Positions 35,227 to 61,894 of a stretch of DNA of 64,000 bases are shown here, in pieces; the first letter of the stretch is position 1; each line of letters starts with the position of its first letter. This stretch comes from Nicotiana tabacum (Eukaryota; Streptophyta; Magnoliopsida; Solanales; Solanaceae), in contig NC_134082.1 of assembly GCF_000715075.1 (NCBI RefSeq), forward strand, positions 138,248,948 through 138,312,947. Direction: 5' to 3'. The notes under the pieces were generated by a model, which did no database searches, was not told the DNA's origin, and saw nothing but the letters and a program-made list of their open reading frames with translations. Both the position numbers and the translations under genes were made by a program.

Positions 35227-37720
35227 CTATGTGTAAGCACGTGATTTTTGCCCAATATGAGAATTACTCCCGAAAAATTCAAAAATAAAATGATTTTTTT
35301 TTGGTGTGCAATTTTGTGATATTTTGAATAATTATTTGTATTTGTCTGTGCATGTTTATTTGCTAAATTAATAAAACAAAAATACAAAAATATGTCGCAT
35401 TTGCATGTAGGATTTAATTCTATAATTGTTACTAATTAAATTTGTTTACAAAAAATTAAAAATTACAAAAATAGGCATCGTTTGCATTTTTAGCATTTAA
35501 TGTCCAAATATACAATTTTATGCTTAATTATTACTTAATTGTGCGTTAATTATTATTGGGAGTTAATTTGCGCTTTTATAACTTAATTTAGTTCTTAATA
35601 ATTGTTTAAGTATTTTTTATAATTTAGTTTTAGAGAAATAAAAGAAGAAAAGAGAGCGAAAATATAAAGAAAGTCGGAATTGGGCCTCTTCTTCGATTTC
35701 GAGCCACCGGCCCAAAACATGGCCCAATCTTTCCTACGACCCAGTCCATTTCGAACTGGGTCGACCCAGTCCATAATCCAAAAGACCCAAACCCCTTTGT
35801 CTTACATTTTACAACACAAAACAAAAGAAAAAAGAAGAAAAAACCCTAAAAAAGACTAAGAAGTCATTCGCCCCCCCTCCTATCTTCTTCTTCTTCCTCA
35901 AGTTTCTCCAAGGTCATCCATGGCTTCCCCCTCAAAGATCAACCATGGTTGCCCAACGTCACACTCACACGCACACACACACGTCACCCTCACGACCCCG
36001 GCTCAACCAAACGACCTCCAAACGCGACCGAACCAACAACCAATCCGTCGAGCTCCACCATGAAAGCTCACAGTTGAGATTTCCGCGACTACTTCTGTCT
36101 CCGAGCTGCTGCATCGCGCTCATCATCTTCAACACCAAGCTCCTTGCGACTGCCCGTCACAGCTTCTGCCATCGTCATCCATGGTGGTTGCTTTCATCTT
36201 CTCCGTTCTTCGTCAAAGCTCGAGCTTTGACCTCCATCCATGGCTGCCGTAGATGCGTCTTCTTCGCTAATCGAGCTGCTGCTGCCTTCTGCTTGTGACG
36301 GGCTGCCATTTTTCGTTTTTAAACGATGCCAAACGACCACCTTCTTTTGTCGTCCGTTCGTGGTCGTCTTCGGTGTCAAGTTATCTTGGTGCGAGATTCG
36401 TTTCCGGACAGATTGTTTCCATCCAAGTTCATCGTCATTCGCTCGATGCTTGGGTCATCAAAACAGTCCGTACGTATGTCGTTCGATCCGGTTAGTAGAT
36501 TTTGAGTTTTATGTTTGTCCGTATTTTGTTTTGATATTTTTCAAATCTAAAATCGGCGAATGTTTGTTTTGTTCATGTCTATGCTTAGATATTTGATTTT
36601 TGGTTTTGTTCATGTTCATGTTGTTTGTTAAATTAATTTTCAGATTTCAAAATAGAAGTTTAATTAGTTGTTTTCATATTCATTTCATGTTTGTATTATT
36701 GTTTAAGTAAATATTTGTTAGTTTGATGTTTGTTAGATTCAAATTGAAATTTAATTAACTATTTCTTCAATTTGTTTCATGTGTTTATGTATTGTTAGAA
36801 ATTGTTAATATTGTTAAGTTCAAGTTTAAGTTCATAATTGTTTCTTCGTCGATCTTGTTATTTGTCTAAAGAATTTAGTTGTAATAAGGGAAGTATGTTG
36901 GTTTTAATCATTTGAATCCATTGTTTTTACTTTTAGATTTAATTCATGTTCATATTATGTTTGTTTGTTCTTGAATCCGAAATTTGTATAGCTTGATTTC
37001 TTGTTTACCATTTGTGATTATTTCTTGAATTTATCTCATAAAGTTTAATATAGGAATTGTTGGTTGTAATGTTGTTAGAATTGATTTTAAGTTCAATATG
37101 ATTGAAGTTAGAAATCTAAATATACTTGTTTGTTGTAGTTGTTGAATCCGAAAATAGGATTGTTTGTTGCTAAAATATTGTTCAATCAAATTTTAGTTGT
37201 TCTTTGTTGTTCAATTTGTGTTCATGTGATTTGTTGTTGAAATATTGTTAAAATCGTGTTCATGTGATATTGTTGTTATGATGTTCATCCGTGTTCATAT
37301 TGTTGTTTGAACATTGTTAGAAATTGATCATATTGTCTATATTTTGGTTAAGTTTGATTAATTGATGTGTTATAGCTGATGGGTAGTTTGGTAAATTTGT
37401 AGTACGTTCAGGGGTAGTTTGGTAATTTCAGTAAGGTCGTGAGGGGTAGTTTAGGAATTGTACATTTTGAAATTGTTTATTTGAAGCATGGGGGACAAAA
37501 TGAAATGGGGTGGGTTGTGATATAGTTGTTTAATATAAAGGGGGGACAAGATTTAATTTAAAGGGGGAATCTTGCATTATTTTAAATGAAGCATGGGGGA
37601 CAAAATATAATGGGGTGGTGTGATATGTTTATTTAATGTAATGGGGATGAGTGGAAAGATAATGGGTTGGGTAGAGAAAAAGTATTAATTTAATTGATTA
37701 AAAGATTTATGGGATGGGAT

Positions 37721-37729
37721 TATATATAT
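37721..37729 (+). promoter_or_regulatory. Candidate TATA box of the Ogre-type 5' LTR
   Basis: TATATATAT is followed after about 25-30 bp by a purine-rich leader-like stretch (GAGAGAGATACG). The same arrangement is kept in the 3' LTR at 52258-52266. It is the best promoter candidate in the LTR; the start site is inferred only. Confidence 0.5.
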
Positions 37730-39561
37730 GAAGTCTTGAACACAAGACAAGAACAAAAATAGGGAGAGAGATACGAAAAAAATACACACACAGATAGAGA
37801 GAGAAAAACGGACAGAGAATAGAAGAGAGAAAAATTCCGAAAAATATTTAAGCTTTCAAAATAAAATAAAACTAAAAAAAAGTCTACTGCTTTCTTTCTT
37901 TGCTTGAAATTAGTATTAATGGTTGTTGTTTCATTTAAAGCTTAAAGCTTTTGTTTTTGGGATTACTACTCCACCGGTCTGTTACTGGGTTGTTACTGTT
38001 GCTGGGCAGTTGTTGCTATTGTACTGTTATTACTGCTGCTGATTCTCATCATCATTTTCTTTTGCTTCCAATATTAGGTATATATTTTAAATTCATGGCA
38101 TGAAAAGCTTCAACATGGCAAGTAAATGAAGTTTGGAATTATAAGGATGTCTTCTACTCATTTAAATTTTATTAGTTTAAGTTTCAGTTTTGTTTTAGTT
38201 GGTTAATATAGTATTATACTTGACATGATAAACTGTTAACTAATTAACCTTCTGGAGTAGTAAATTCCACGATAATCTTATATGTTTTGAGGACTAGTGA
38301 TGACATTTACTGTTTAAATTGTTGAGATAGGGAACATTGCAGAAAATTGGCCATTAATTAAATCTTGTGATATTGTTAGCTAAGTAAAGAATAGTACGGA
38401 AATACCCAGAAATTACATTACTAGATTATTTTGTCAAATATCCAATTTTGTTTAAAGCTAGATGATGTCGTCTTATTAAATCAATTGGTAGATTAGTTCT
38501 CTTTCTTAATAACAAATGGCATAGTTATTTTAGGAACACGATCAACTCATTTCTTTTAATGTATGAAATAATGTCGATGATTTTTTTTACAAAATATAGA
38601 GTTAGTGTTTGTAAATATTCGCATAGGCAGAGTTAGTGTTTATCTCAAACTCAATCTTCGTAATCAAAAATTAACTAAATAATTATAACCTCGGACTAAA
38701 AACAAGTGTTGTAAAAGAAAGATGAGATTTATAAATTGTAACATTTTAAGTCAAAAATGTGTAAATAGCGTTTGCTACAAATAGAATAATGAAAATTCTT
38801 CAAAAATATCACTTCCTTTCTTACATCCATTCTTTCCCAATTTTTATACGTAATTTGCACGTTGTTTATTTGGGTAGGCAAATATTGTATTCACTAAAAG
38901 GTAGTATTAATCACACGTTGTTTATTTTACTCCTCAAATTCGAATGGTTTGAGGAATATAATTCATACGCGAAAAAATATAAATTGCGATCGACGTCCAA
39001 TAAATTGTAAATTCTTTTTAAGGAATTTAGAGACTAGAAGAATATTTATTTCTCATGACTTTCACATAAAAATGTATGGATGTAATAAACAATTTGTGGA
39101 AAATTTATACTACCATCAAGAATATTTTTGTGATTAGGGATACGTTCGCGTAACCTAATTATATTTCTAAAAGCAATTCGGATTATGCGTTCGCGTGACA
39201 TCGATCGAATATTTAATAAAAGGGATTTCTCGGAGAATATCATTATTAATTTCATAAAAACCCGAGATGTGAGGTTCACTACTTAATTATACCAAAAGGG
39301 CGAATGTTTTTGATTTTATTTAAAGCATAATTTCGAAAATGATTATTTTAATAAAAATATTATCTATATTATTGTGTACACGTGCGCGTGACACAACTCC
39401 GCATGTTTTAAAAAATATAATTTATAACACGAATATACGTACGCGTGATTCGATTCAAAGAAGGGTCTTTAAATCTAAATAAAAGCGGTAACAATAAAAT
39501 CATGCAATAAAAATGTATTTAACAAATCAAAATAATCAAGCCGAATATAACAGTTGAGCGA

Positions 39562-39735
39562 CCGTGCTAGAACCACGGAACTCGGGAATGCCTAACACCT
39601 TCTCCCGGGTTAACAGAATTCCTTATCCGGATTTCTGGTGCGCGGACTGTTAAATAGACAGAGTCTTATTCTCCTCGATTCAGGGATTAAAACCGGTGAC
39701 TTGGGATGCCTTAAAATTCCCAAGTGGCGACTCTG
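39562..39735 (+). other. Structured U5 end with an 11-nt copy of the primer site
   Basis: Four consecutive stems are visible: CCGTG/CACGG (39562/39574), AACTCGGGA/TCCCGGGTT (39579/39603, one wobble), CAGAATTCC/GGATTTCTG (39614/39629, one mismatch) and CAGAGTC/GACTCTG (39659/39729), the last enclosing the perfect ACTTGGGA/TCCCAAGT (39699/39718). TGGCGACTCTG at 39725-39735 repeats the first 11 bases of the primer site at 39829. All are retained in the 3' LTR (about 54095-54270). Confidence 0.72.
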
Positions 39736-39828
39736 AAACAAACAAACAAATCCCGTTTCGATTATCCTTTAATTGGAGAAAACTCCCTTGCACCCTTGCG
39801 GGGGCGGAAAAAGGAGGTGCGACAGCTC

Positions 39829-39846
39829 TGGCGACTCTGCTGGGGA
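39829..39846 (+). other. Primer binding site, Ogre/Tat type
   Basis: TGGCGACTCTGCTGGGGA lies four bases after the LTR end. This is the class of primer site reported for Ogre/Tat elements (tRNA-Arg); I recognise it from the family and have not matched it to a tRNA. Confidence 0.85.
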
Positions 39847-40849: not shown

Positions 40850-40916
40850 GAACTACGCGGGTTTGATTCTCACCGGATGTGAGATACGTAGGCAACCCTC
40901 ATCGGGTCCAACCCCC
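40850..40916 (+). other. Four-helix pseudoknot RNA motif, copy a
   Basis: P1 is CTACG 40853-40857 with CGTAG 40887-40891. P2 hairpin is TCTCAC 40868-40873 with GTGAGA 40879-40884. P3, crossing P1, is GGGTT 40859-40863 with AACCC 40910-40914. P4 hairpin is ACCC 40895-40898 with GGGT 40904-40907. The order is P1a, P3a, P2, P1b, P4, P3b. Confidence 0.75.
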
Positions 40917-41699
40917 CATTTTTGCTAAAATAGCCAAAAACCAATAAATAAATAAATAAATAAAAAACGTGTCAAAATTTTAATCTTGTCATAAATAAGT
41001 CGGGTGGTGTCCAACCTCCCCTTTTGCTAAAATATAGCCAAAAATAATATGTCAATTTTTAATTTTGTCATAAAGAAGTCGGGTGACGCTGTTTTATCAA
41101 GACATAGCCGAATGTTCCCGAAAGGGACGCCGGAAGGCTGACTTTGCATAAATAACCACCTTTGGGTCATTTTTTAAGATTTGGTCCAATCGACCCACAC
41201 AGCCTTAAAAATCTTCGTCCCCGAGGCGCTGAAGGGCCGTGTTTGCAACACCCGATTTTTATTGTAATTTGAAAAAAAAAAGAGTTAGTGGTCAGGTGAA
41301 TACCGTTTGGATTTTTGGTCAAAATAAGTCGAGCCAGCTTCGACCGCGTCTTAAACGGTTCTTGCCGAAATAGCCTTAGAGTATCTTTCAGTTGTCGAAA
41401 GGTTATTTTCGTAAAAGAACAGACAAGTTTGTAAAGTGTCAAAATAATCCTCCCCGACCTCAAAATTCATGTGAGATTTGGAAGGGGCCACATTTGCAAA
41501 AATAGCCGTTTGGTTGCATTTGTCAAACGGGGAAAGGAAGCTGGCCTTTTTTGTTTTGAGAGTATAAATCTTTTGATTAAAATATGTGGGTTGTTTGATT
41601 TTCAAGTTTGTAGGTAATCTTCAAACCATTGAAACCCAGTTTGTTTTAATATGAAAATTGAAAAAAAAATGATTAGTATTGTTCATCTTTTATTGGTCC

Positions 41700-41766
41700 G
41701 AACTACGCAAGGTCTGATTCATGCGGGGTCATGATACGTAGGCAATCTCCATAAGATTCGACCACC
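41700..41766 (+). other. Four-helix pseudoknot RNA motif, copy b
   Basis: P1 is CTACG 41703-41707 with CGTAG 41737-41741. P2 is TCATG 41719-41723 with CATGA 41730-41734. P3 is GGTC 41711-41714 with GACC 41760-41763. P4 is AATCT 41744-41748 with AGATT 41754-41758. It stands about 280 bp before gag, in the same place as copy e of the second element. Confidence 0.75.
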
Positions 41767-41992
41767 ACAATAAAATATATATAATAAAATAAAATAAAAT
41801 AAAATATAAGTGAATAAAATTTTCAAGAAAACTGGGACGACACAAGCAGTCGAGCAAATGCATAATAGAAAGGGGATATTTGTCTAGGAGCATTGCATCT
41901 CAACGTGTAATTATATATGTGTTAAATTCTCAAAACTAACAAGTTTGTTCATTTCCAGAATTCAAGCAGTTAGTTTCTCTAAAGAGTATACT

Positions 41993-43980
41993 GGCATATT
42001 ATCATTATCACACGAGATCAAAAGGACGAATACCCGAAAGTATGTCTATCCCAGATGTTGACACAGGTATTGAGCTAGAGGAGATGGATGTCGGGAAAAT
42101 GAAAGAAGAGATGTTTAAACTCAAACAGCAAATGGCTGAAATGTACCAGGCTTGGTCTACAGGGCAGTTACCCCTATCTTACCCAACTAACCCTGCTCCA
42201 TCAATGACCCAAACTCAGGATAATATTACCACTAAATTATCCCCAAATTTCCCCATTTACCAACACTACCGAGGAACCACCTCTCAAACACCGCAGTCTC
42301 CACCTCCAAAACCAGTTTCATACTTTCCTCCACCTGTGACTCCTGTTTTCGTAGCACCTCCCCCGGCTACATTCCACAAATCTCCTAGTGAGCCTACATT
42401 CCAGGCCCAGGACAACCAATATTACCCCCTGAGCCCACCCTCAAAGCCTCCGAAATCCATTCAACTACTCCTCGTTTTGATATCCCAACCGAAATTGACA
42501 AGCCAGCCAAAAATGCTGAACAAGAAGAAATGTTCAGGAAGGTCAAAAGTCTAGAACAATCATTCCGAGACATGCGGGGATTAGGTGGGCAAGTCAGTGT
42601 AGGTTACAAGGATTTGTGCTTGTTCCCAAATGTACAATTACCAGTTGGTTTCAAGATGCCTAAATTTGACCTATACAATGGGCACGGCGACCCAGTAACC
42701 CACTTAAGGGGTTTCTGCAGCAAGATGCGAGGAGCTGGGGGAAAGGACGAATTATTGATGGCTTACTTCAGTCAAAGTTTAAGCGGATCAGCTTTGGAGT
42801 GGTATACACGCCAGGACCATGGGAGATGGTACACCTGGGATGACCTAGCACAGGCATTCGCACACCATTTCCAATACAATCTGGAAATCATCCCAGATCG
42901 ACTATCTTTGACAAAATTTGAGAAGAAACACAATGAAAGTTTCAGAGAGTATGGCTTCCGGTGGAGAGAACAGGCAGCAAGAGTGGATCCTCCTATGAAG
43001 AAGAGTGAAATGGTAGACTACTTCCTCCAAGCCTTGGAACCAACTTACTATGTCCATTTGGTTTCAGCGGTAGGGAAATCATTCAACGAGGTAGTGAAGA
43101 TGGGAGGTATGGTGGAAGAAGGCCTCAAAACAAATAAAATTATGAGTTATTCAGCAATTAAGGCAGCTACTCAAGCTATTCAAGGCGGGGTAGGAGAAAT
43201 CGGAAGAAAGAAGAGAGAGGAAGCAGCGGTAGTTGATTCAGGAATTTGGTCGGGACCCAGAGGTTCACCGCCTTACTATAATCAACAACGACCTCGCCAA
43301 TCAACTTACCACCACAATTCATCCCAACACTACTATCACCCTTCAGAGCCCCATTCTTCCATTAACCAAGCCCAAACATATACTCAGCCTCCGGTTCGCT
43401 CGCAATGGCGCGCACCGGCTCCCCAGAACACACATACACCACTGCAAAACACCTATTCACCACCAAGAGCCTACAAGAACCCTCCAGGGGCAGGTTTCCG
43501 GGGAAATCAGGCTTTCAGAAATGAAAAAATACAAAGAACATTCACTGAGTTGGGGAAACCTATACTGCCGTGTTCCACAAATTAAGGCAGTTAGGCTTGT
43601 TGAGTCCTGTTGAGCCCAGATTGCCAAATCCCTTTCCCAAAAATATGGACCACTCGGAAAGCTGTGAGTATTGTTCGGGGGCCCTCGGACATGATACCGA
43701 GAAATGTTGGAAGTTGAAACATGCAGTACAAAATCTTATTGACACCAACAAGATTGAGGTTCAGACACCAGAGGCACCCAACATCAATCAGAACCCGTTG
43801 CCGGCACACCTTGAAACCCACATGATTGAGCTAATTCACGAAGGAGGGAAGCTAAAGAAACCCTCACAAACAGTGATGATGATCCGTGTCGGTTCAAAAT
43901 AAATGTTAACCAGTGGGAAAACGGTGGTATAGTTGGAAAAGGTGGATAACAAGCCAGTTATGGTGTTGGGAAAAGGGTCC
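41993..43980 (+). pseudogene. gag: Ogre-type gag remnant, with protease deleted
   Basis: The original start appears changed from ATG to CTG (about 41993; the codons after it match those after the ATG at 60106), so the first ATG is 42042. There is a coiled-coil-like start (EEMFKLKQQMAEMY), a Pro-rich linker and a frameshift near 42440. The capsid core is in 42530-43585, with KFDLYNGHGDPVTHLRGF, ALEWYTRQ and FQYNLEIIPDRL. A second frameshift occurs near 43550. A zinc-knuckle-like CEYCSGALGHDTEKC (CX2CX5HX4C) lies at 43660-43705. Near 43890-43980 the sequence jumps to the end of the protease region, deleting about 1.2 kb. Confidence 0.88.
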
Positions 43981-44880: not shown

Positions 44881-45139
44881 CATGGCTATCAATTCTGACG
44901 CAGTTAAGAGATATTATGATTTCTGGTAATTGTAATTGTTGTTTGTTTGTACTTAGCATTTATCAGAGAATGAAATGACGGAGGCAATTCTTTCTTCTAT
45001 CCAAACACTTTGACCTTTGCTTCCCCTTTTGAGTCTTATTTACTCTTTCATACCCCTCTTTTGGAATCAGTAATGAAAACGAAAAAAGTAATGATAATAA
45101 GAACAAAAGATAAGTCAAGAAAAAAAACAAAGGAATGGG

Positions 45140-45199
45140 AACTACGTTTGACCTGATTCCTCAAAGAAGGATACGTAGGCGCCTCACGGCTCGGTCATA
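45140..45199 (+). other. Four-helix pseudoknot RNA motif, copy c
   Basis: P1 is CTACGT 45142-45147 with ACGTAG 45173-45178. P2 is TCCT 45158-45161 with AGGA 45168-45171. P3 is TGACC 45149-45153 with GGTCA 45193-45197. P4 is GCC 45181-45183 with GGC 45188-45190. It is the shortest copy and lies in the 3' region. Confidence 0.7.
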
Positions 45200-47270: not shown

Positions 47271-47418
47271 ATCAAAACTGGGGCAGAAGATTTTCTGCCA
47301 TGGTCGAAAATTTTCTCAGAAGAACGAGGAAATCAATTCAAGTTTTAAAAGATAGCAAGACGACAAGATTTGGAGAAAAACAGTCGGAGGTAAGACAATT
47401 CCAAGATGTTGAAAATGG

Positions 47419-49008
47419 GATCATCCGCCCTCGAATAGGATATTTGGGTTCATCCACCCTCGAATAGGATATTTTGGGATCATCCGCCCTCGAATAGGAT
47501 ATTCTGGGTTCATCCGCCCTCGAATAGGATATTATGGGTTTATCCGCCCTCGAATAGGATAAGATGGGTTCATCCGCCCTCGAATAGGATATTTTGGGTT
47601 CATCCGCCCTCGAATAGGATATATTGGGTTCATCCGCCCTCGAATAGGATATATTGGGTTCATCCGCCCTCGAATAGGATATTATGGGTTCATCCGCCCT
47701 CGAATAGGATATTTTGGGTTCATCCGCCCTCGAATAGGATATTTTGGGTTCATCCGCCCTCGAATAGGATATAATGGGATCATCCGCCCTCGAATAGGAT
47801 ATTTTGGGTTCATCCGCCCTCGAATAGGATATTTTTGGGTTCATCCGCCCTCGAATAGGATATAATGGGTTCATCCGCCCTCGAATAGGATATTTTGGGT
47901 TCATCCGCCCTCGAATAGGATATTGTTGGGTTCATCCGCCCTCGAATAGGATATTTTGGGTTCATCCGCCCTCGAATAGGATATAATGGGTTCATCCGCC
48001 CTCGAATAGGATATTTTGGGATCATCCGCCCTCGAATAGGATATAATGGGTTCATCCGACCTCGAATAGGATATTTTGGGTTCATCCGCCATCGAATAGG
48101 ATATTTTGGGTTCATCCGCCCTCGAATAGGATATAATGGGATCATCCGCCCTCGAATAGGATATTTTGGGTTCATCCGCCCTCGAATAGGATATTTTGGG
48201 TTCATCCGCCCTCGAATAGGATATATTGGGTTCATCCGCCCTCGAATAGGATATTATGGGTTCATCCGCCCTCGAATAGGATATTTTGGGTTCATCCGCC
48301 CTCGAATAGGATATTGTTGGGTTCATCCGCCCTCGAATAGGATATAATGGGATCATCCGCCCTCGAATAGGATATTTTGGGTTCATCCGCCCTCGAATAG
48401 GATATTTTTGGGTTCATCCGCCCTCGAATAGGATATTTTGGGTTCATCCGCCCTCGAATAGGATATTTTGGGTTCATCCGCCCTCGAATAGGATATTTTG
48501 GGTTCATCCGCCCTCGAATAGGATATTTTGGGTTCATCCGCCCTCGAATAGGATATTGTTGGGTTCATCCGCCCTCGAATAGGATATTGTTGGGTTCATC
48601 CGCCCTCGAATAGGATATAATGGGTTCATCCGCCCTCGAATAGGATATTTTGGGTTCATCCGCCCTCGAATAGGATATAATGGGTTCATCCGCCCTCGAA
48701 TAGGATATTTTGGGTTCATCCGCCCTCGAATAGGATATTTTGGGTTCATCCGCCCTCGAATAGGATATAATGGGATCATCCGCCCTCGAATAGGATATTT
48801 TGGGTTCATCCGCCCTCGAATAGGATATTTTTGGGTTCATCCGCCCTCGAATAGGATATAATGGGTTCATCCGCCCTCGAATAGGATATTTTGGGTTCAT
48901 CCGCCCTCGAATAGGATATTGTTGGGTTCATCCGCCCTCGAATAGGATATTTTGGGTTCATCCGCCCTCGAATAGGATATTTCGGGTTCATCCGCCCTCG
49001 AATAGGAT
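47419..49008 (+). repeat. 30-bp minisatellite, about 53 copies, in the Ogre-type 3' region
   Basis: The unit is GGGTTCATCCGCCCTCGAAT followed by AGGATATTTT. I count 53 copies, a few of 31 bp (extra T or G before GGG). Variation is concentrated in the four bases before GGG (TTTT, TAAT, TATT, TTAT, TGTT) and at GTTC/GATC. An eight-unit run of variants (11-18, about 47740-47970) recurs in the same order as units 44-51 (about 48720-48960). Because 30 is a multiple of 3, the minus strand reads open as ten-residue repeats (RADEPKISYS); this is not a gene. Tandem arrays in Ogre 3' regions are a known source of satellites. Confidence 0.93.
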
Positions 49009-49018
49009 TTTATTTTAA

Positions 49019-49300: not shown

Positions 49301-49618
49301 TCAAGTCAGAGGACAATAAAATAGAGGGTTAAAATAGGAATCCCCAGCAGGAAACAATAAAATTCCCCGGCACCGGGAAGCAGAAGGTTGCAACAAGAGG
49401 TCACAGCACAAACTCAAGTGCATGTGTCAAAAAGAAGAAAAGCACCGGAAAAAATGCAAGCAGACAAGAAAGCAAGGCAACAAGAAAAATTGCAGTATAG
49501 CTTAACTTCTTGTTTTCTTTTAAGCATGGTGTAACAAGGAGATCGGTAAGCAGTAGTAATAGCATGCAACAACAGTAACAGTGCAGTCCAACGGTAGTCC
49601 CAGCTACCAAAGTTTCCG

Positions 49619-49690
49619 AACTACATTGACCTAATTCCTGTTTAGCCCAGGATGTGTAGGAAACCTTTGAAGCAAAGGTCCGGTCAAATC
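49619..49690 (+). other. Four-helix pseudoknot RNA motif, copy d
   Basis: P1 is CTACA 49621-49625 with TGTAG 49655-49659, a compensatory change from CTACG/CGTAG. P2 is TCCTG 49636-49640 with CAGGA 49648-49652. P3 is TTGACC 49626-49631 with GGTCAA 49682-49687. P4 is ACCTTT 49663-49668 with AAAGGT 49674-49679. It lies about 110 bp before the 3' LTR. Confidence 0.78.
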
Positions 49691-49797: not shown

Positions 49798-52700
49798 TGT
49801 AAGCACGTGAGTTTTGTCCAATATGAGAATTACTCCCAAAAAATTCAAAAATAAAATGATTTTTCTTTGGTGTGCAATTTTGTGATATTTTGAATAATTA
49901 TTTGTATTTGTCTGTGCGTGTTTATTTGCTAAATTAATAAAAACAAATACAAAAATATGTCGCATTTTCATGTAGGATTTAATTCTATAATTGTTACTAA
50001 TTAAATTTGTTTACAAAAAATTAAAAATTACAAAAATAAGCATCTTTTGCATTTTTAGCATTTATTGTCCAAATATACAATTTTATGCTTAATTATTAGT
50101 TAATTGTGCGTTAATTGTTATTGGGAGTTAATTTGCACTTTTATAACTTAATTTAGTTCTTAATAATAGTTTAAGTATTTTTTATAATTTAGTTTTAGAG
50201 AAATAAAAGAAGAAAAGAGAGCGAAAATAGAAAGAAAGTCGGAATTGAGCCTCTTCTTCGATTTAGAGCCACCGGCCCAAAAAATGGCCCAATCTTGGGT
50301 CGACCCAGTCCATAATCCAAAAGACCCAAACCCCTTTGTCTTACATTTTACAACACAAAACAAAAGAAAAAAGAAGAAAAAACCCTAAAAAAGACTAAGA
50401 AGTCATCCGCCCCCCTCCTATCTTCTTCTTCTTCCTCAAGTTTCTCCAAGGTCATCCATGGCTTCCCCCTCAAAGCTCAACCATGGCTGCCCAACGTCAC
50501 ACTCACACACATACACGCACGTCACCCTCACGACCCCGGCTCAACCAAACGACCTCCAAACGCGACCGAACCAACAACCAATCCGTCGAGCTCCACCATG
50601 AAAGCTCACAGTTGAGATTTCCGCGACTACTTCTGTCTCCGAGCTGCTGCATCGCGCTCATCATCTTCAACACCAAGCTCCCCGCGACTGCCCGTCACAG
50701 CTTCTGCCATCGTCATCCATGGTGGTTGCTTTCATCTTCTCCGTTCTTCGTCAAAGCTCGAGCTTCGACCTCCATCCATGGCTGCCGTAGATGCATCTTC
50801 TTCGCTAATCGAGTTGCTGCTGCCTTCTGCTTGTGACGGGCTGCCATTTTTCGTTTTTAAACGATGCCAAACGACCACCTTCTTTGGTCGTCCGTTCTTG
50901 GTCGTCTTCGGCGTCAAGTTATCTTGGTGCGAGATTCGTTTCCGGACAGATTGTTTCCATCCAAGTTCATCATCATTCGCTCGATGCTTGGGTCATCAAA
51001 ACAGTCCGTACGTATGTCGTTCGATCCGGTTAGTAGATTTTGAGTTTTATGTTTGTCCGTATTTTGTTTTGATATTTTTCGAATCTAAAATCGGCGAATG
51101 TTTGTTTTGTTCATGTCTATGCTTAGATATTTGATTTTTGGTTTTGTTCATGTTCATGTTGTTTGTTAAATTAATTTTCAAATTTCAAAATAGAAGTTTA
51201 ATTAGTTGTTTTCATATTCATTTCATGTTTGTATTATTGTTTAAGTGAATATTTGTTAGTTTGATGTTTGTTAGATTCAAATTGAAATTTAATTAACTAT
51301 TTCTTCAATTTGTTTCATGTGTTTATGTATTGTTAGAAATTGTTAATATTGTTAAGTTCAAGTTTAAGTTCATAATTGTTTCTTCGTCGATCTTGTTATT
51401 TGTCTAAAGAATTTAGTTGTAATAAGGGAAGTATGTTGGTTTTAATCATTTGAATCCATCGTTTTTATTTTTAGATTTAATTCATGTTCATATTATGTTT
51501 GTTTGTTCTTGAATCCGAAATTTGTATAGCTTGATTTCTTGTTTACCATTTGTGATTATTTCTTGAATTTATCTCATAAAGTTTAATATAGGAATTGTTG
51601 GTTGTAATGTTGTTCGAATTGATTTTAAGTTCAATATGATTGAAGTTAGAAATCTAAATATACTTGTTTGTTGTAGTTGTTGAATCCGAAAATAGGATTG
51701 TTTGCTGCTAAAATATTGTTCAATCAAATTTTAGTTGTTCTTTGTTGTTCAATTTGTGTTCAAGTGATTTGTTGTTGAAATATTTTTAAAATCGTGTTCA
51801 TGTGATATTGTTGTTATGATGTTCATCCGTGTTCATATTGTTGTTTGAACATTGTTAGAAATTGATCATATTGTCTATATTTTGATTAAGTTTGATTAAT
51901 TGATGTGTTATAGCTGATAGGTAGTTTGGTAAATTTGTAGTACGTTCAGGGGTAGTTTGGTAATTTCAGTAAGGTCGTGAGGGGTAGTTTAGGAATTGTA
52001 CATTTTGAAATTGTTTATTTCAAGCATGGGGGACAAAATGAAATGGGTGGGTTATGATATAGTTGTTTAATATAAAGGGGGGACAAGATTTAATTTAAAG
52101 GGGGAATCTTGCATTATTTTAAATGAAGCATGGGGGACAAAATATAATGGGGTGGTGTGATATGTTTATTTAATGTAATGGGGATGAGTGGAAAGATAAT
52201 GGGTTGGGTAGAGAAAAAGTATTAATTTAATTGATTAAAAGATTTATGGGATGAGATTATATATATGAAGTCTTGAACACAAGACAAGAACAGAAATAGC
52301 AACAGAAATACAGAGAGAGAAATAGGGAGAGAGATACGAAAAATAATACACACACAGATAGAGAGAAAAATTCCGAAAAATATTTAAGCTTTCAAAATAA
52401 AAATAAAACTAAAAAAATTTACTGCTTTCTTTCTTTGTTTGAAATTAGTATTAATGGTTGTTGTTTCATTTAAAGCTTAAAGCTTTTGTTTTTGGGATTA
52501 CTACTCCACCGGTCTGTTACTGGGTTGTTACTGTTGCTGGGCAGTTGTTGCTATTGTACTGTTATTACTGCTGCTGATTCTCATCATCATTTTCTTTTGC
52601 TTCCAATATCAGGTATATATTTTAAATTCATGGCATGAAAAGCTTCAACATGGCAAGTAAATGAAGTTTGGAATTATAAGGATGTCTTCTACTCATTTAA

Positions 52701-54359
52701 ATTTTATTAGTTTAAGTTTCAGTTTTGTTTTAGTTGGTTAATATAGTATTATACTTGACATGATAAACTGTTAACTAATTAACCTTCTGGAGTAGTAAAT
52801 TCCACGATAATCTTATATGTTTTGAGAACTAGTGATGACATTTACTGTTTAAATTGTTGAGACAGGGAACATTGAAGAAAATTGGCCATTAATTAAATCT
52901 TGTGATATTGTTAGCTAAGTAAAGAATAGTACGGAAATACCCAGAAATTACATTACTAGATTATTTTGTCAAATATCCAATTTTGTTTAAAGCTAGATGA
53001 TGTCGTCTTATTAAATCAATTGGTAGATTAGTTCTCTTTCTTAATAACAAATGACATAGTTATTTTAGGAACGCGATCAACTCATTTTTTTTAATGTATG
53101 AAATAATGTCGATGATTTTTTTTACAAAATATAGAGTTAGTGTTTGTAAATATTCGCATAGGCAGAGTTAGTGTTTATCTCAAACTCAATCTTCGTAATC
53201 AAAAATTAACTAAATAATTATAACCTCGAACTAAAAACAAGTGGTGTAAAAGAAAGATGAGATTTTTAAATTGTAACATTTTAAGTCAAAAATGTGTAAA
53301 TAGCGTTTGCTACAAATAGAATAATGAAAATTCTTCAAAAATATCACTTCCTTTCTTACATCCATTCTTTCCCAATTTTTATATGTAATTTGCACGTTGT
53401 TTATTTGGGTAGGCAAATATTGTATTCACTAAATGGTAGTATTAATCACACGTTGTTTATTTTACTCCTCAAATTCGAATGGTTTGAGGAATATAATTCA
53501 TACGCAAAAAAATATAAATTGCGATCAACGTCCAATAAATTGTAAATCCTTTTGAAGGAATTTAGAGACTAGAAGAATATTTATTTCTCATGACTTTCAC
53601 ATAAAAATGTATGGATGTAATAAACAATTTGTGGAAAATTTATACTACCATCAAGAATATTTTTGTGATTAGGGATACGTTCGCGTAACCTAATTATATT
53701 TCTAAAAGCAATTCGGATTATGCGTTCGCGTGACTTCGATCGAATATTTAATAAAAGGGATTTCTCAGAGAATATCATTATTAATTTCATAAAAACCCGA
53801 GATGTGAGGTTCACTACTTAATTATACCAAAAGGGCGAATGTTTTTGATTTTATTTAAAGCATAATTTCAAAAATGATTATTTTAATAAAAATATTATCT
53901 ATATTATTGTGTACACGTGCGCGTGACACAACTCCGCATGTTTTAAAAAATATAATTTATAACACGAATATACGTACGCGTGATTCGATTCAAAGAAGGG
54001 TCTTTAAATCTAAATAGAAGCGGTAACAATAAAATCATGCAATAAAAATGTATTTAACAAATCAAAATAATCAAGCCGAATATAACAGTTGAGCGACCGT
54101 GCTAGAACCACGGAACTCGGGAATGCCTAACACCTTCTCCCGGGTTAACAGAATTCCTTATCAGGATTTCTGGTGCGCAGACTGTTATATAGACAGAGTC
54201 ATATTCTCCTCGATTCAGGGATTAAAACCGGTGACTTGGGACGCCTTAAAATTCCCAAGTGGCGACTCTGAAACAAACAAACAAATCCCGTTTCGACTGT
54301 CCTTTAATTGGAGAAAACTCCCTTGCACCCTCGCGGGGGCGGAAAAAGGAGGTGCGACA
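49798..54359 (+). repeat. Ogre-type 3' LTR (4562 bp)
   Basis: It is collinear with 35232-39824. Differences are sparse over most of its length (a few per 600 bases around 52640-53300) and denser in the first 300 bases. The U5 stem cluster, the 11-nt primer-site copy and the TATATATAT word are all kept. Confidence 0.92.
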
Positions 54360-57906: not shown

Positions 57907-59632
57907 GGATCTACTCAAGATAAGCAAGGGAGTCCCGTACTCTGAGGTGGATAGAGGTTTTTCTACTCTGCAGTTCATATACTAGAGGTATGGGCATATA
58001 GGAGGGTTCGACGATCTGGAAAGCAGGGTTTGCAGCAGAGGGAATCGGACAAAATAGGATGAACATAGGCGGTTCGCCTTCATGGTAGCATTCTTGGGCA
58101 TTGTGGTGTTTCCTTGGAAAGACAAAATATTGATTTGAATGTGGTTGGAGTCGTCAAGGTCCTAATTACCAACAACAAAAGCACGTTTGCCCCTATGATA
58201 GTGTCCGAGATATACCGAGCTCTCACAGTCTGTAAAGCCGGGGCAGATTTTTTCGAAGGATGCAATTTGTTATTACAGATGTGGATGATCGAGCACTTGT
58301 GTCATCATCCTTAGTATATGAGCTATAGATCTACAAACGAAGGTTGAATTGAAGGATATAACACGAGGGTTTCAGGGCTCAAATTGCCAGAAGGGTCTGA
58401 AAACTGGGTATCTTGCCTTCGCGCCATCACTGCAGCACAAATAGGGTGAACATTGGGTTGGCTTCTTGTTGAAGAAATTGTGTACATGCCCGCCACGGGT
58501 CCTTACTTCCTCTTAATGGGACTCCGAGGCATTCAGCCTTATGCACCTTGTCGGGTGATGAGACAGTTAGGGAGGTGTCAGGTGGTACACCCAAACGAAG
58601 ATCTCAGTGTTTATGCAATCGAGGTTAGCACCAATGGCCAATTTCATGAAGAAACCGTTCATTCTATATGGAATGAATGCCAATACTTAACGGTAAACAC
58701 TCGAGTGCACGACCTATCAAGATGCGAAGTCTCACCTACTTATATTGCCTGGTACATGAAGAGAGACGTTGTAAGAGACGAGCCAGAACGGCCAACCAAA
58801 AAACCTCACATTCAAGAGTTCGTCGAGGCATCACAAGAACCGTGGGACTGGTTGGCCAAAGAGCGCGAATACCGGGCCGAAGTAGGCAAGCTGAAACAAC
58901 AGATTAAGGATCTGAAATTTGAGAACAGGGTGCAAGTTGCTGCCGATGAAGGAGAAAAGAACAAATTAGCCCAAGAAAATGAGGCTCTCAAGTCTTAGAT
59001 CCGACAAATGAGGATAGATGATGACAACCAGCAAAGGAGTCGGTCGGATGATAGATTGATTAATGGACTAAAGAAGGAAATCATTGAGCGCCGGGATGAC
59101 CTGAAGAAATCTGAGGGTGCCATAGCACAGCTCCGGGCACAATGGGAAAAAAGAACAAAAGAGTGCACACAGTACTTGCAGCAGGCGAAGAAGGAATATG
59201 AAAAAACCATCGCCAAACTAAAAGGAAAAATGACCACCCTTGAGGACAAGGCAGCTAAGCAAGCTGAAGCTTATGAAATCGAAAGTGGACACTGTTACGA
59301 TTTACTGGCTCAAATGGAAGATAAAATACTGTAGTTGCAGAGGCAGCATCTCCAGGATTCTCAGGTTTTGGGTGGCCGTAGTGATCAGATAGGGCACCTG
59401 CTCATAGAATAAGGTCGAACCAGAAACAAGATTGGGACTATTGCCCATGACATCATTAGGAGATGCCGAATGTGTAAAGACATGACCCGCACTACCTTCT
59501 TATCAGCAGTAATGATTTTTGTCAAGCGGACAATGTACGAACTGGAGCAACTTGAAAGGGATCTCGCACCTAAGCCCGCGGCAAGGCCGAATGATGCCTC
59601 GCGAGCACCAACTTTTGGAGCTTTAATGTAAT
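57907..59632 (+). pseudogene. Ogre-type ORF1 remnant (plant-mobile-domain-like, coiled-coil tail)
   Basis: Ogre elements carry an extra ORF before gag whose N-terminal part resembles plant mobile-domain proteins; its role is unknown. Here the pieces read ADFFEGCNLLLQMWMIEHL (58240-58300), then GWLLVEEIVYMPATGPYF, RVMRQLG and WNECQYLTV (58455-58700). The C-terminal part, in 58860-59335, is a long charged coiled coil (KLKQQIKDLKFENRV, KKEIIERRDDLKKSEGAIAQL). Stops at 58312, 58449, 58996, 59332 and 59409 and a frameshift near 58440 break it. The natural start is uncertain; the left end is cut. Confidence 0.75.
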
Positions 59633-60105
59633 TATAGTTCAAGTTAGTGTTTTTGTTTTTAGAGTCTGTTGTCTGTCTGTATGTTCCCTTTTGCATCAAA
59701 ATGTGTCAGTAGTTTTTTTTAGTCCGTAATTGGTTTTACTTTGGGTTTGTTCTCCTTTCCAAAAAATGTTTAGTTTGTATTATAATGTTTCAGTAAAGAA
59801 AATGGAAAATTCCCAAAATTTACTTTCGCATTTATGTGGCAGAACTACGCCCGGTCTGATTCATGTGGGGACATGATACGTAGGCAATCCGCATAAGATT
59901 CGACCACCACTAAAAAGGAAAGTTTGGAGGCACTTAAAAAAAGTCGGAATGACACATGCAGTCAGAACAAAGACATGATAGAAATGGTTAAACTTCTTAG
60001 GAACATTGCATCCCCAACGTGAAATTGCAATATGTGTTAAACTCTAACGCTAACAAGTTTGTTGTTGATCCAGAGATTTCGAAACAGTTAGCTCGTTAGA
60101 ACATT
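59633..60105 (+). other. Spacer between ORF1 and gag
   Basis: Non-coding, about 470 bp. It contains copy e of the four-helix motif (59843-59907) and a stretch (59940-60060) collinear with the gag leader of the first Ogre-type element (41820-41940). Confidence 0.7.
59843..59907 (+). other. Four-helix pseudoknot RNA motif, copy e
   Basis: P1 is CTACG 59845-59849 with CGTAG 59879-59883. P2 is TCATGT 59861-59866 with ACATGA 59871-59876, GGGG loop. P3 is GGTC 59853-59856 with GACC 59902-59905. P4 is AATC 59886-59889 with GATT 59897-59900. It is in the same relative position as copy b of the other element. Confidence 0.75.
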
Positions 60106-61894
60106 ATGGCAGATTACCATTACCACACAAGATCTAAAGGGCCCATTCCGAAAAGTATGTCTGGTTCGGACAAAAGTGTTTAGGAGGAAAAGACGGAGAT
60201 GCAAATGATGAAGGAGGAAGTAGACAGGTTGAGACAAGAGATAGCTGGGATGCACCTAGCCTAGGCTAGGGGACAAACCTCACCAATACCTCCCCCTACT
60301 CCTACCCTCTCACCGGCTCGGACTCCGGAACACCCTCTCGCTGGTCCATCAACGAGCTTCCCCATTGCCCAATACTATCAGGGGTTCCTATAATCCCCAA
60401 GCTCCACCACCCAAACAAAACCCTCTTCCACCAACTGTTCCTGTTTTCGTGGCACACGCCACATTGCAAAAATCATCGGATGATCCAGTGTTTCAGGTTC
60501 ACGACAACCAATACTATCCTCCCAAACTCACCTTCAAAGCACCCGAGCCATGCACTTACACCCCTCACCTTCTGCTCCCGGTAGAAACTGAGAGGCCGGC
60601 TAAGAATCTGGAGCAGAACGAAGTGCTTCGTAAAGTGAAAAGTCTAGAGCAATCCTTCAGGAATATGCATGGATTGGGCAGCCAAGTTAGTGTGGCCTAC
60701 AAAGATCTGTGTCCCTTCCCCGATGTTCAATTGTCGGCAGGTTTTAAGATGCCAAAGTTTGATCTATATGAGGGACATGGTGATCCCATGGCACATCTAT
60801 GAGGTTTCTGTAGTAAGATGAGAGGGGCAGGTAGAAAGGATGAGCTGTTGATAGCTTATTTTGGTCAAAGTTTAAGCGAGTCCGCACTGGAATGGTATAC
60901 GAGGCAGGATCCTAGCAGGTGGTATACCTGGGACGATCTAGCACAAGCATTTGCAGGTCACTTCCAGTATAACCTTGAGATCGTCCCTGACCGTCTCACA
61001 CTGTTGAAACTTGAGAAAACGCCTGGAGAGAGCTTCAGGGAATTCGGATTCCGTTGGAGAGAACAAGCAGCAAGAGTCGATCCACCAATGAGGCAAGGTG
61101 AAATGGTGGACTACTTCTTACAAACTTTGGAGTCAACTTACTTTGGTCACCTGGTGACGTCAGTTGGTTAATCTTTCAACGAAGTAGTAAAAATGGGTGG
61201 TATGGTTGAAGAGGGACTCAGGTCCAACAAGATAATGAGCTATTTGGCAATCAAGGCCACAACTCAGGATATCCAAAGAGGCACGGGAGGTGCGCTCGAG
61301 AAAAAGAAGAGAGAGGAGGTCGCAATAGTTGAAGCAGTTACTTGGTCCAGATCCAGAGGTCCTTTCACTCACTACCAACCCAGACCCCATCACCCAAATT
61401 ATCCACACACTTCATACAACCCTCCACAGCCCTATTATCCACCACAAGAACCACATTTCTCCGTCCATCACGCCCAAACTTACACCCAGCCTCCGGCACG
61501 CCCACAATGGCGTGCGTTGTTTCCCCAGAACACATATCCACCTCCACAAAACACATACCCACCTCCGCAAAGCACATATCCACCACCAAGGGCCTACAGG
61601 AATCCTTCAGGGCTAGGCTTCCGCGGAAATCAGGCTTTCAGGAGTGAAAGGGTGCACAGGCAGAGAACATTCACTCTGCTGGGAGAAACCTATACTACTC
61701 TGTTCCACAAATTGAGGCAATTAGGCCTATTGAGTCTTGTTGAGCCCAAATTGCCAAATCCCCTTCCCAAAAATCTGGACCACTTGGTAAGCTATGAATA
61801 TTGTTCGGGGGCTCCCGGACATGATACTGAGAAGTGTTGGAAGTTGAAGACTGCCGTACAAGATCTTATTGAAACAAATAGGATCGAGGTTTAG
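60106..61894 (+). pseudogene. gag: Ogre-type gag remnant (second element)
   Basis: It starts MADYHYHTRSKG at 60106. There are stops at 60181 and 60262 and a frameshift near 60390. One frame then runs to 61894 with only two nonsense changes (60800, 61169). Capsid words are GFKMPKFDLYEGHGDPMAHL, ALEWYTRQDPSRWYTWDDL and FQYNLEIVPDRL. A Pro/Tyr-rich linker contains short TYPPPQN repeats (61515-61590). The zinc-knuckle-like CSGAPGHDTEKC is at 61800-61840. Confidence 0.88.

Follow-up and report, generated by a model that had tools for sequence, protein, structure and literature searches.

To our knowledge, few cis-acting RNA folds have been described in plant transposons besides the ENE, a fold whose U-rich internal loop takes up the poly(A) tail. 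In a report on this triple helix of the Evade/Copia93 3' UTR, the ENE is described as protecting the RNA from deadenylation and raising mobility, and ENE motifs as being strongly associated with LTR retrotransposons (PMC12501189). The exoribonuclease-resistant RNAs named xrRNA-D are known from dianthoviruses, Tombusviridae and Luteoviridae, where they occupy intergenic and 3' untranslated places; the model reported to have detected them lacked the pseudoknot, for which covariation then became evident (PMC6299227). Another plant virus xrRNA, Coremin, has a core ending in AAACUAC and a pair of hairpins, of which the first carries a YGAD loop (PMC10520033).

The motif analyzed here belongs to a known kind, the cis-acting RNA fold of a plant transposon. 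What appears to be new is the fold itself, the layout in four places and the possibility that different classes of transposon share it. It is 56-70 bases long and can be described as a predicted H-type pseudoknot with two extra hairpins. Read 5' to 3', it starts with GAA and the first strand of helix P1 (CTACG), followed by 1-4 bases, the first pseudoknot strand (mostly GRYY), TGAT and the hairpin P2, which has TC at its start, GA at its end and a loop of variable length. Then come TA, the second strand of P1 (CGTAG), usually GCA, the hairpin P4, usually YC, and the last pseudoknot strand. In our larger alignment of 127 copies (see below) hardly any change is seen in the unpaired TGAT, TA and the G that follows P1', a constancy inflated partly by pattern-based sampling, and the G, A and A located 5' of P1 are kept in 124, 127 and 124 copies, numbers biased upward by a sample partly chosen by GAACTAC. 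The pseudoknot is built from 41 different strand pairs in the same copies, with all four pairs formed in 100.

Both the ENE and this motif are structured RNA in the untranslated part of a plant transposon RNA. However, no U-rich internal loop is seen by eye in the motif itself, which is a pseudoknot and occupies four places, the 3' end being just one of them. With xrRNA-D it shares a compact pseudoknot in intergenic and 3' places, found by a pseudoknot-free model. In xrRNA-D the pseudoknot is formed by the P2 hairpin loop with the 3' strand, whereas here the 5' pseudoknot strand sits in the P1-P2 junction, and not in a hairpin loop, and the hairpin P4 precedes the 3' strand. The AAACUAC of Coremin is by eye close to GAACUAC, a likeness of a few letters only, and no counterpart of P1 or of the pseudoknot was seen in Coremin. 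A literature search, with few subscription papers in its scope, gave no description of the motif, and the letters GATACGTAGG returned unrelated titles.

The five copies that the initial annotation had reported in the window (the whole 64,000-nt stretch of DNA) all exist, on the forward strand, and their four helices pair as described (Table 1). Two of the starts were exact (40850 and 41700) and the other three, given as 45140, 49619 and 59843, were off by one, the real ones being 45139, 49618 and 59842. The nested folding energies of these copies are ordinary (z +0.02 to -1.45), as judged by an energy model that is blind to the pseudoknot.

Table 1. Positions of the motif copies and of the surrounding transposon features in the window.
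Feature	Position	Strand	Details
5' LTR of the element with copies A-D	35232..39824	+	97.0% identity to 49798-54359 over 4597 aligned positions
Probable primer binding site	39829..39846	+	TGGCGACTCTGCTGGGGA; presumably fits arginine tRNA
Motif copy A, leader, about 1 kb past the 5' LTR	40850..40914	+	R1 62.6 bits, E 6e-17; P1 CTACG/CGTAG, P2 TCTCAC/GTGAGA, P4 ACCC/GGGT, pseudoknot GGGTT/AACCC
Motif copy B, before gag	41700..41764	+	R1 75.7 bits, E 4e-21; P1 CTACG/CGTAG, P2 TCATG/CATGA, P4 AATCT/AGATT, pseudoknot GGTC/GACC
gag remnant	42392..43585	+	Pfam Retrotrans_gag 6.2e-9
Motif copy C, past gag and RT remnants	45139..45197	+	R1 62.9 bits, E 5e-17; P1 CTACG/CGTAG, P2 TCCT/AGGA, P4 GCC/GGC, pseudoknot TGACC/GGTCA
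Motif copy D, end 111 bases 5' of the 3' LTR	49618..49686	+	R1 62.1 bits, E 9e-17; P1 CTACA/TGTAG, P2 TCCTG/CAGGA, P4 ACCTTT/AAAGGT, pseudoknot TTGACC/GGTCAA
3' LTR of the same element	49798..54359	+	Purine tract AAAGAGGGGCAGC just before
ORF upstream of copy B of the second element	58450..58998	+	Pfam PMD 2.5e-4, weak, below cut-off
Motif copy B of the second element, before its gag	59842..59906	+	R1 75.3 bits, E 5e-21

The motif is abundant far beyond chance. Its core pattern, TGATTCN{3,33}GATACGTAGGC, has 61,290 exact matches in the 4.0-Gb host genome (31,133 and 30,157 by strand), compared to 2 and 0 for the pattern read backwards. A covariance model (R1) that includes P1, P2 and P4 and omits the pseudoknot was made from 25 copies and scanned over the window and 28 loci picked around core-pattern matches. 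In these 288 kb it gave 73 matches at 46-78 bits, equivalent to 68 distinct genome places due to the overlap of four loci (L018, L019, L020 and L025), and the next best match had 13.8 bits. In the window, R1 at E<=1 retrieved exactly the five copies, although its E-values are over-optimistic for AT-rich DNA, as illustrated by the chance match L127 discussed below. The larger alignment, A4, excludes L019 and L025 and includes a further 60 short stretches chosen by eye from pattern listings for variety, all 60 of which matched; its 127 matches correspond to 122 distinct rows, and its P1 counts are lowered by some stretches having been chosen for a mismatched P1. The absence of a named family, anticipated by the initial annotation, was borne out: Rfam 15 gave six matches over the whole window at E<=1, none on a motif copy, and no match over 41680-41790 (copy B) at E<=10. 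The motif would be a new RNA family for Rfam.

The alignment was made by a model without the pseudoknot, and since the copies are related we used as null independent columns simulated on the copies' own tree. Standard pairs fill 93.1% of the pair cells of the 25 copies, versus 83.0% after shuffling and 19.5-35.5% with the partners slid; for the 127 matches (122 rows) the corresponding values are 92.4%, 81.8% and 16-37%. The top seven of 2080 column pairs in the 122 distinct copies all belong to the proposed structure: three to P2, one to P4 and three to the pseudoknot (PK). In rank order these are P2 24-43, P4 62-78, P2 23-45, PK 14-84, PK 16-82, P2 25-42 and PK 12-86, and the equally good pairs per null are 0.000, 0.000, 0.013, 0.080, 0.087, 0.540 and 0.553 (mean of 150 nulls). 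Other pairs of the structure score low, with null counts of 2.0 (P4 61-79), 21 (PK 15-83), 104 (PK 13-85), 142 (P4 63-77), 183 (P1 8-53) and more than 2000 (P4 60-80). Per-pair tests by independent contrasts reached no significance, the supported pairs being too few.

Paired change had been claimed for all four helices, and the cells in which both partners change indicate where this holds. They number 142 in P2 and 108 in the pseudoknot (the helix initially named P3) in the 122 rows, with maxima of 83 and 68 in 300 nulls, and 76 and 57 in the 63 distinct rows of the 73 R1 matches, with maxima of 47 and 31. For P4 the signal is weaker: 53 cells, reached by 3 of 300 nulls, and 25 in the 63 rows, reached by 6. 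The claim fails to reach significance only for P1, with 19 cells (reached by 37 of 300 simulations) and 8 in the smaller set (33 of 300). The fraction of cells paired gave weaker results, with only P2 exceeding every null; the nulls that reach the observed value, of 300, are 0 for P2, 16 for the pseudoknot, 55 for P4 and 60 for P1 in the 122 rows, and 0, 9, 36 and 97, respectively, in the 63 rows. Thus, P2 and the pseudoknot are well supported and P4 fairly so, and P1 amounts to invariance plus one base-pair swap. A selected RNA fold with a pseudoknot, as initially proposed, is in our judgment nearly certain.

The changes announced for P1 are concentrated in its last pair, the only one to vary much in a near-invariant helix. 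This pair is G-C in most copies and A-T in the D copies. Genome-wide we counted 54,116 G..C, 24,211 A..T, 3,170 G..T (a few of the G..T matches listed are spurious and end at a later TGTAGG) and 2,527 A..C. The near-equal numbers of the two single mismatches would fit CpG decay in dead copies. The 100 A..T places listed look like D copies, and for this reason the swap may be a single event.

The carriers had been assigned to the Ogre/Tat type, and we found the order and dimensions expected from that assignment, with Ty3-type gag-pro-RT-RH-INT between long LTRs (gene order in L033; the LTRs of the window are 4.6 kb). We take "Ogre" to be the probable label. In these Ogre-like elements the motif is found in the leader (A), before gag (B), after pol (C) and just before the 3' LTR (D). 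Seven sources could be read from A to D (L023, L024, L025, L027, L031, L034 and the window element); L031 and L034 have an additional fifth copy near A, and the others have four. The pattern listings give the same order for L026 and L033, which have a full gag-pol. In L033, copy B precedes by some 300 bases a frame of 1177 codons, after which come RT/RNase H, integrase and copy C; the first part of this frame matches the gag stretch of the window, and the only Pfam match there is a G-patch below cut-off. All copies of any one source, in the window and the 28 loci, lie on one strand, which for the five in the window is that of gag. Copy B is upstream of the gag match in the 16 loci and two window places that showed both, including the second element, whose gag-like match begins at 60106, 3' of its copy B. 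The distance from D to the 3' LTR is 106-111 bases in the three elements measured. Another Tat-type element carries five motif-like copies (22-55 bits) in a row behind its integrase (L128:1290-1721, minus strand).

Two of the seven elements read from A to D, L024 and L027, retain all four copies and have no ORF longer than 157 codons from B to D, nor any match at E<=1e-8 to the gag, protease, RT or integrase pieces of L033, a threshold that a very diverged gag could escape. The two are 84.9% identical to each other over 3.9 kb that include B and C. Since elements without detectable coding sequence keep all their copies, the motif likely acts in cis, and we regard action in cis on the transposon RNA as very probable. 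With labels given by order only, identity is 84.7% for copies that share a place in different elements (84 pairs), compared to 66.9% for different places in one element (42 pairs) and 67.1% for different places in different elements (252 pairs). The greater likeness of same-place copies indicates that the places have been inherited from long ago, with no refreshing of one from another. In a test of the motif as a conserved island, its mean identities were 79-83% versus 62-70% for the flanks in 665 same-class pairs and 73-75% versus 50-59% in 169 pairs chosen for diverged flanks (mean <60%), a within-class comparison that is partly circular, for the class labels use motif letters and mislabel some copies (e.g., L036 and L039). 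Shuffled flanks gave 57-63%, about the level of the real diverged ones.

A test across plant genomes had been suggested, and a single copy from another plant was obtained. This four-helix copy is on contig JAFUBK010000065.1 (L104 and L106), deposited as part of a Bacilli genome from the gut of roe deer. It starts, in the sense strand, 52 bases past the stop of a 656-codon hAT transposase frame (Pfam Dimer_Tnp_hAT 1.9e-21 in L106); among named relatives of this transposase, the closest come from Dipteronia and Acer. A bacterial origin of L104 was considered and rejected: SpoIID, MreB and ssb are on the contig, but the remainder is the plant hAT transposase. The bacterial genes extend up to a partial ssb that is devoid of its first part and matches only the profile end, and the contig probably arose by the false joining of a bacterial fragment to DNA from a tree on which the deer had fed. 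The helices of the hAT-linked copy are P1 CTACG/CGTAG, P2 TCCTC/GAGGA, P4 CTTAATT/AATTAAG and pseudoknot GGCCTT/AAGGCC. Its 35.3 bits are moderately above a chance match and are not decisive alone, because an AT-rich coding stretch (L127) reached 29.4. Its case is made instead by the pseudoknot of 6 bases, which is not in the model, the P4 of 7 bases, and the recovery of P1, P2 and P4 by folding alone (z -3.16). From these features of the sequence we infer that this single copy is a true member of the motif. At E<=10, Rfam 15 over L104 gave no match at the motif on its strand; one weak match (E 6.8) on the opposite strand overlaps the first six bases.

Other searches for relatives gave little. 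There was no motif copy at 20 hAT 3' ends of the host genome (among 116 hAT-like matches listed, with <=33% identity to the query), and no exact match there to a hAT-type variant of the pattern. The core pattern had 14 matches in viral contigs, none with the remaining motif (best R1 score 16.7 bits), and no relative of the L033 RT was found in these contigs. Stricter patterns gave 0 matches in viral contigs and, in prokaryote genome contigs, 0 and then 2, L104 and L103, of which the latter looks like chance (13.4 bits) and was discarded. R1, run with strict filters over 385 (E<=1e-4) and 392 (E<=1e-6) genomes related to the JAFUBK source, itself included, produced one further match, L127:1501-1571. 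This was rejected as well, being an AT-rich bacterial coding stretch without the pseudoknot.

The reading we prefer, with a probability of roughly 0.4, is that of a cis-acting RNA element of Ogre-like retrotransposons that likely protects the transposon RNA from host decay. Its placement in leader, intercistronic and 3' positions means that the motif would belong to the RNA and not to a protein, and the copy behind the hAT transposase, if representative, indicates that packaging or reverse transcription alone cannot be its function. If the function is not tied to Gag or reverse transcriptase and the motif belongs to the RNA, what would remain is the host RNA machinery, i.e., decay, export or translation. 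Presumably the RNA folds in cells as the model predicts and the motif meets this machinery there. P1 and the pseudoknot helix would stack, with the hairpins P2 and P4 projecting, and the nearly invariant unpaired GAA, TGAT, TA and GG would make up a compact block or a protein site. Located in untranslated parts of a long RNA targeted by silencing, such a structure would halt or delay decay, and with several copies every segment of the RNA would be shielded. Protection from decay, taken by itself as the function, is a tentative assignment, which we favor over nuclear export, the second choice, by analogy with the ENE in Evade and the exoribonuclease-resistant pseudoknots of plant viruses. It is likewise possible, although we would not call it probable, that unrelated classes, LTR retrotransposons and hAT elements, share one RNA pseudoknot against host RNA surveillance, a modular anti-decay or anti-silencing element.

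In the case of nuclear export, the fold would recruit an export factor and so let unspliced transposon RNA, with its intron still present, out of the nucleus, in the manner of the constitutive transport elements of simple retroviruses. The retention of copies by elements without detectable coding sequence is compatible with this, several copies and a 3' untranslated position suit it, and copy B lies upstream of a branch-point-like CTAAC that is seen by eye in 9 of 12 aligned rows and is often followed by CAG. However, export elements usually occur singly, and four fixed places seem more than needed, so that we consider this reading unlikely. The motif could also be a signal for packaging or reverse transcription, recognized by Gag or reverse transcriptase of the element itself. 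Its retention where no gag or pol is detectable speaks for this, since such elements have to obtain both proteins from others, and so does the spacing between D and the 3' LTR. Nevertheless, a hAT transposon, which uses neither protein, appears to have the motif (one copy), and we hold this to be a still less probable function. Translation is the weakest of the three functions considered so far, and improbable: plant viral RNAs rely on structured elements in comparable positions, and an internal entry site or 3' enhancer could serve ORF1 and gag-pol on one long RNA, which fits the location of B ahead of gag, but C and D were not seen preceding any sense gene and all four copies are kept where no gag or pol is detectable.

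Hepatitis delta-like ribozymes have the order P1, P2 (the pseudoknot), P3 hairpin, P1', P4 hairpin and P2', and the motif has this helix order (P1-PK-P2-P1'-P4-PK') and crossing. The active-site C of these ribozymes lies between P4 and P2; the motif base just before the last pseudoknot strand, a possible counterpart, is C in 121 of the 127 copies, T in 5 and A in 1. Their P1 has about 7 pairs, no conserved bases are needed 5' of the cut, and in P1.1 the P3 hairpin loop pairs with a stretch after P1. That the motif is a self-cleaving ribozyme cutting the RNA into pieces is nonetheless very improbable, as its P1 has only 5 pairs, the GAA directly 5' of it is conserved, the P2 loop varies freely by eye in length and letters (GAAA included), which makes a second nested helix such as P1.1 unlikely, and cutting at four places would leave no intact template for reverse transcription.

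The motif is thus abundant, covarying and unusually regular in its placement. Should it protect or export transposon RNA, the huge copy numbers that very long retrotransposons reach despite silencing would become easier to understand, and if hAT elements have it too, unrelated transposons would have a trick in common.

Other features were seen nearby. The first half of the window contains two pairs of direct repeats (696-4037/15981-19360 and 7509-13553/24714-30686) of about 95% identity, without the motif. Between A and B (41107-41262) lies a segment some 155 bases long, which includes a conserved TTCCCGAAAGGGA hairpin and is also found in nine other loci (L023, L024, L027, L030, L031, L032, L034, L037 and L038), in some as tandems with a spacing of about 214 bases; 18 copies, with 81% mean identity, were folded and had almost no paired changes, leaving its structure unproven. 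Between C and D, the window has a tandem array of roughly 30-base repeats (47412-49014), and in two other loci long open frames of up to 530 codons run opposite to the element, on the minus strand of L031:7047-8639 and L034:7048-8259. None of those scanned has a Pfam match at cut-off, and these frames may be a by-product of repeats. Finally, at 41900-41960 in the window and at the equivalent place in other B copies, before gag, there is a CTAAC, often followed by CAG. They look like a branch point and a splice acceptor, and copy B may be in an intron.
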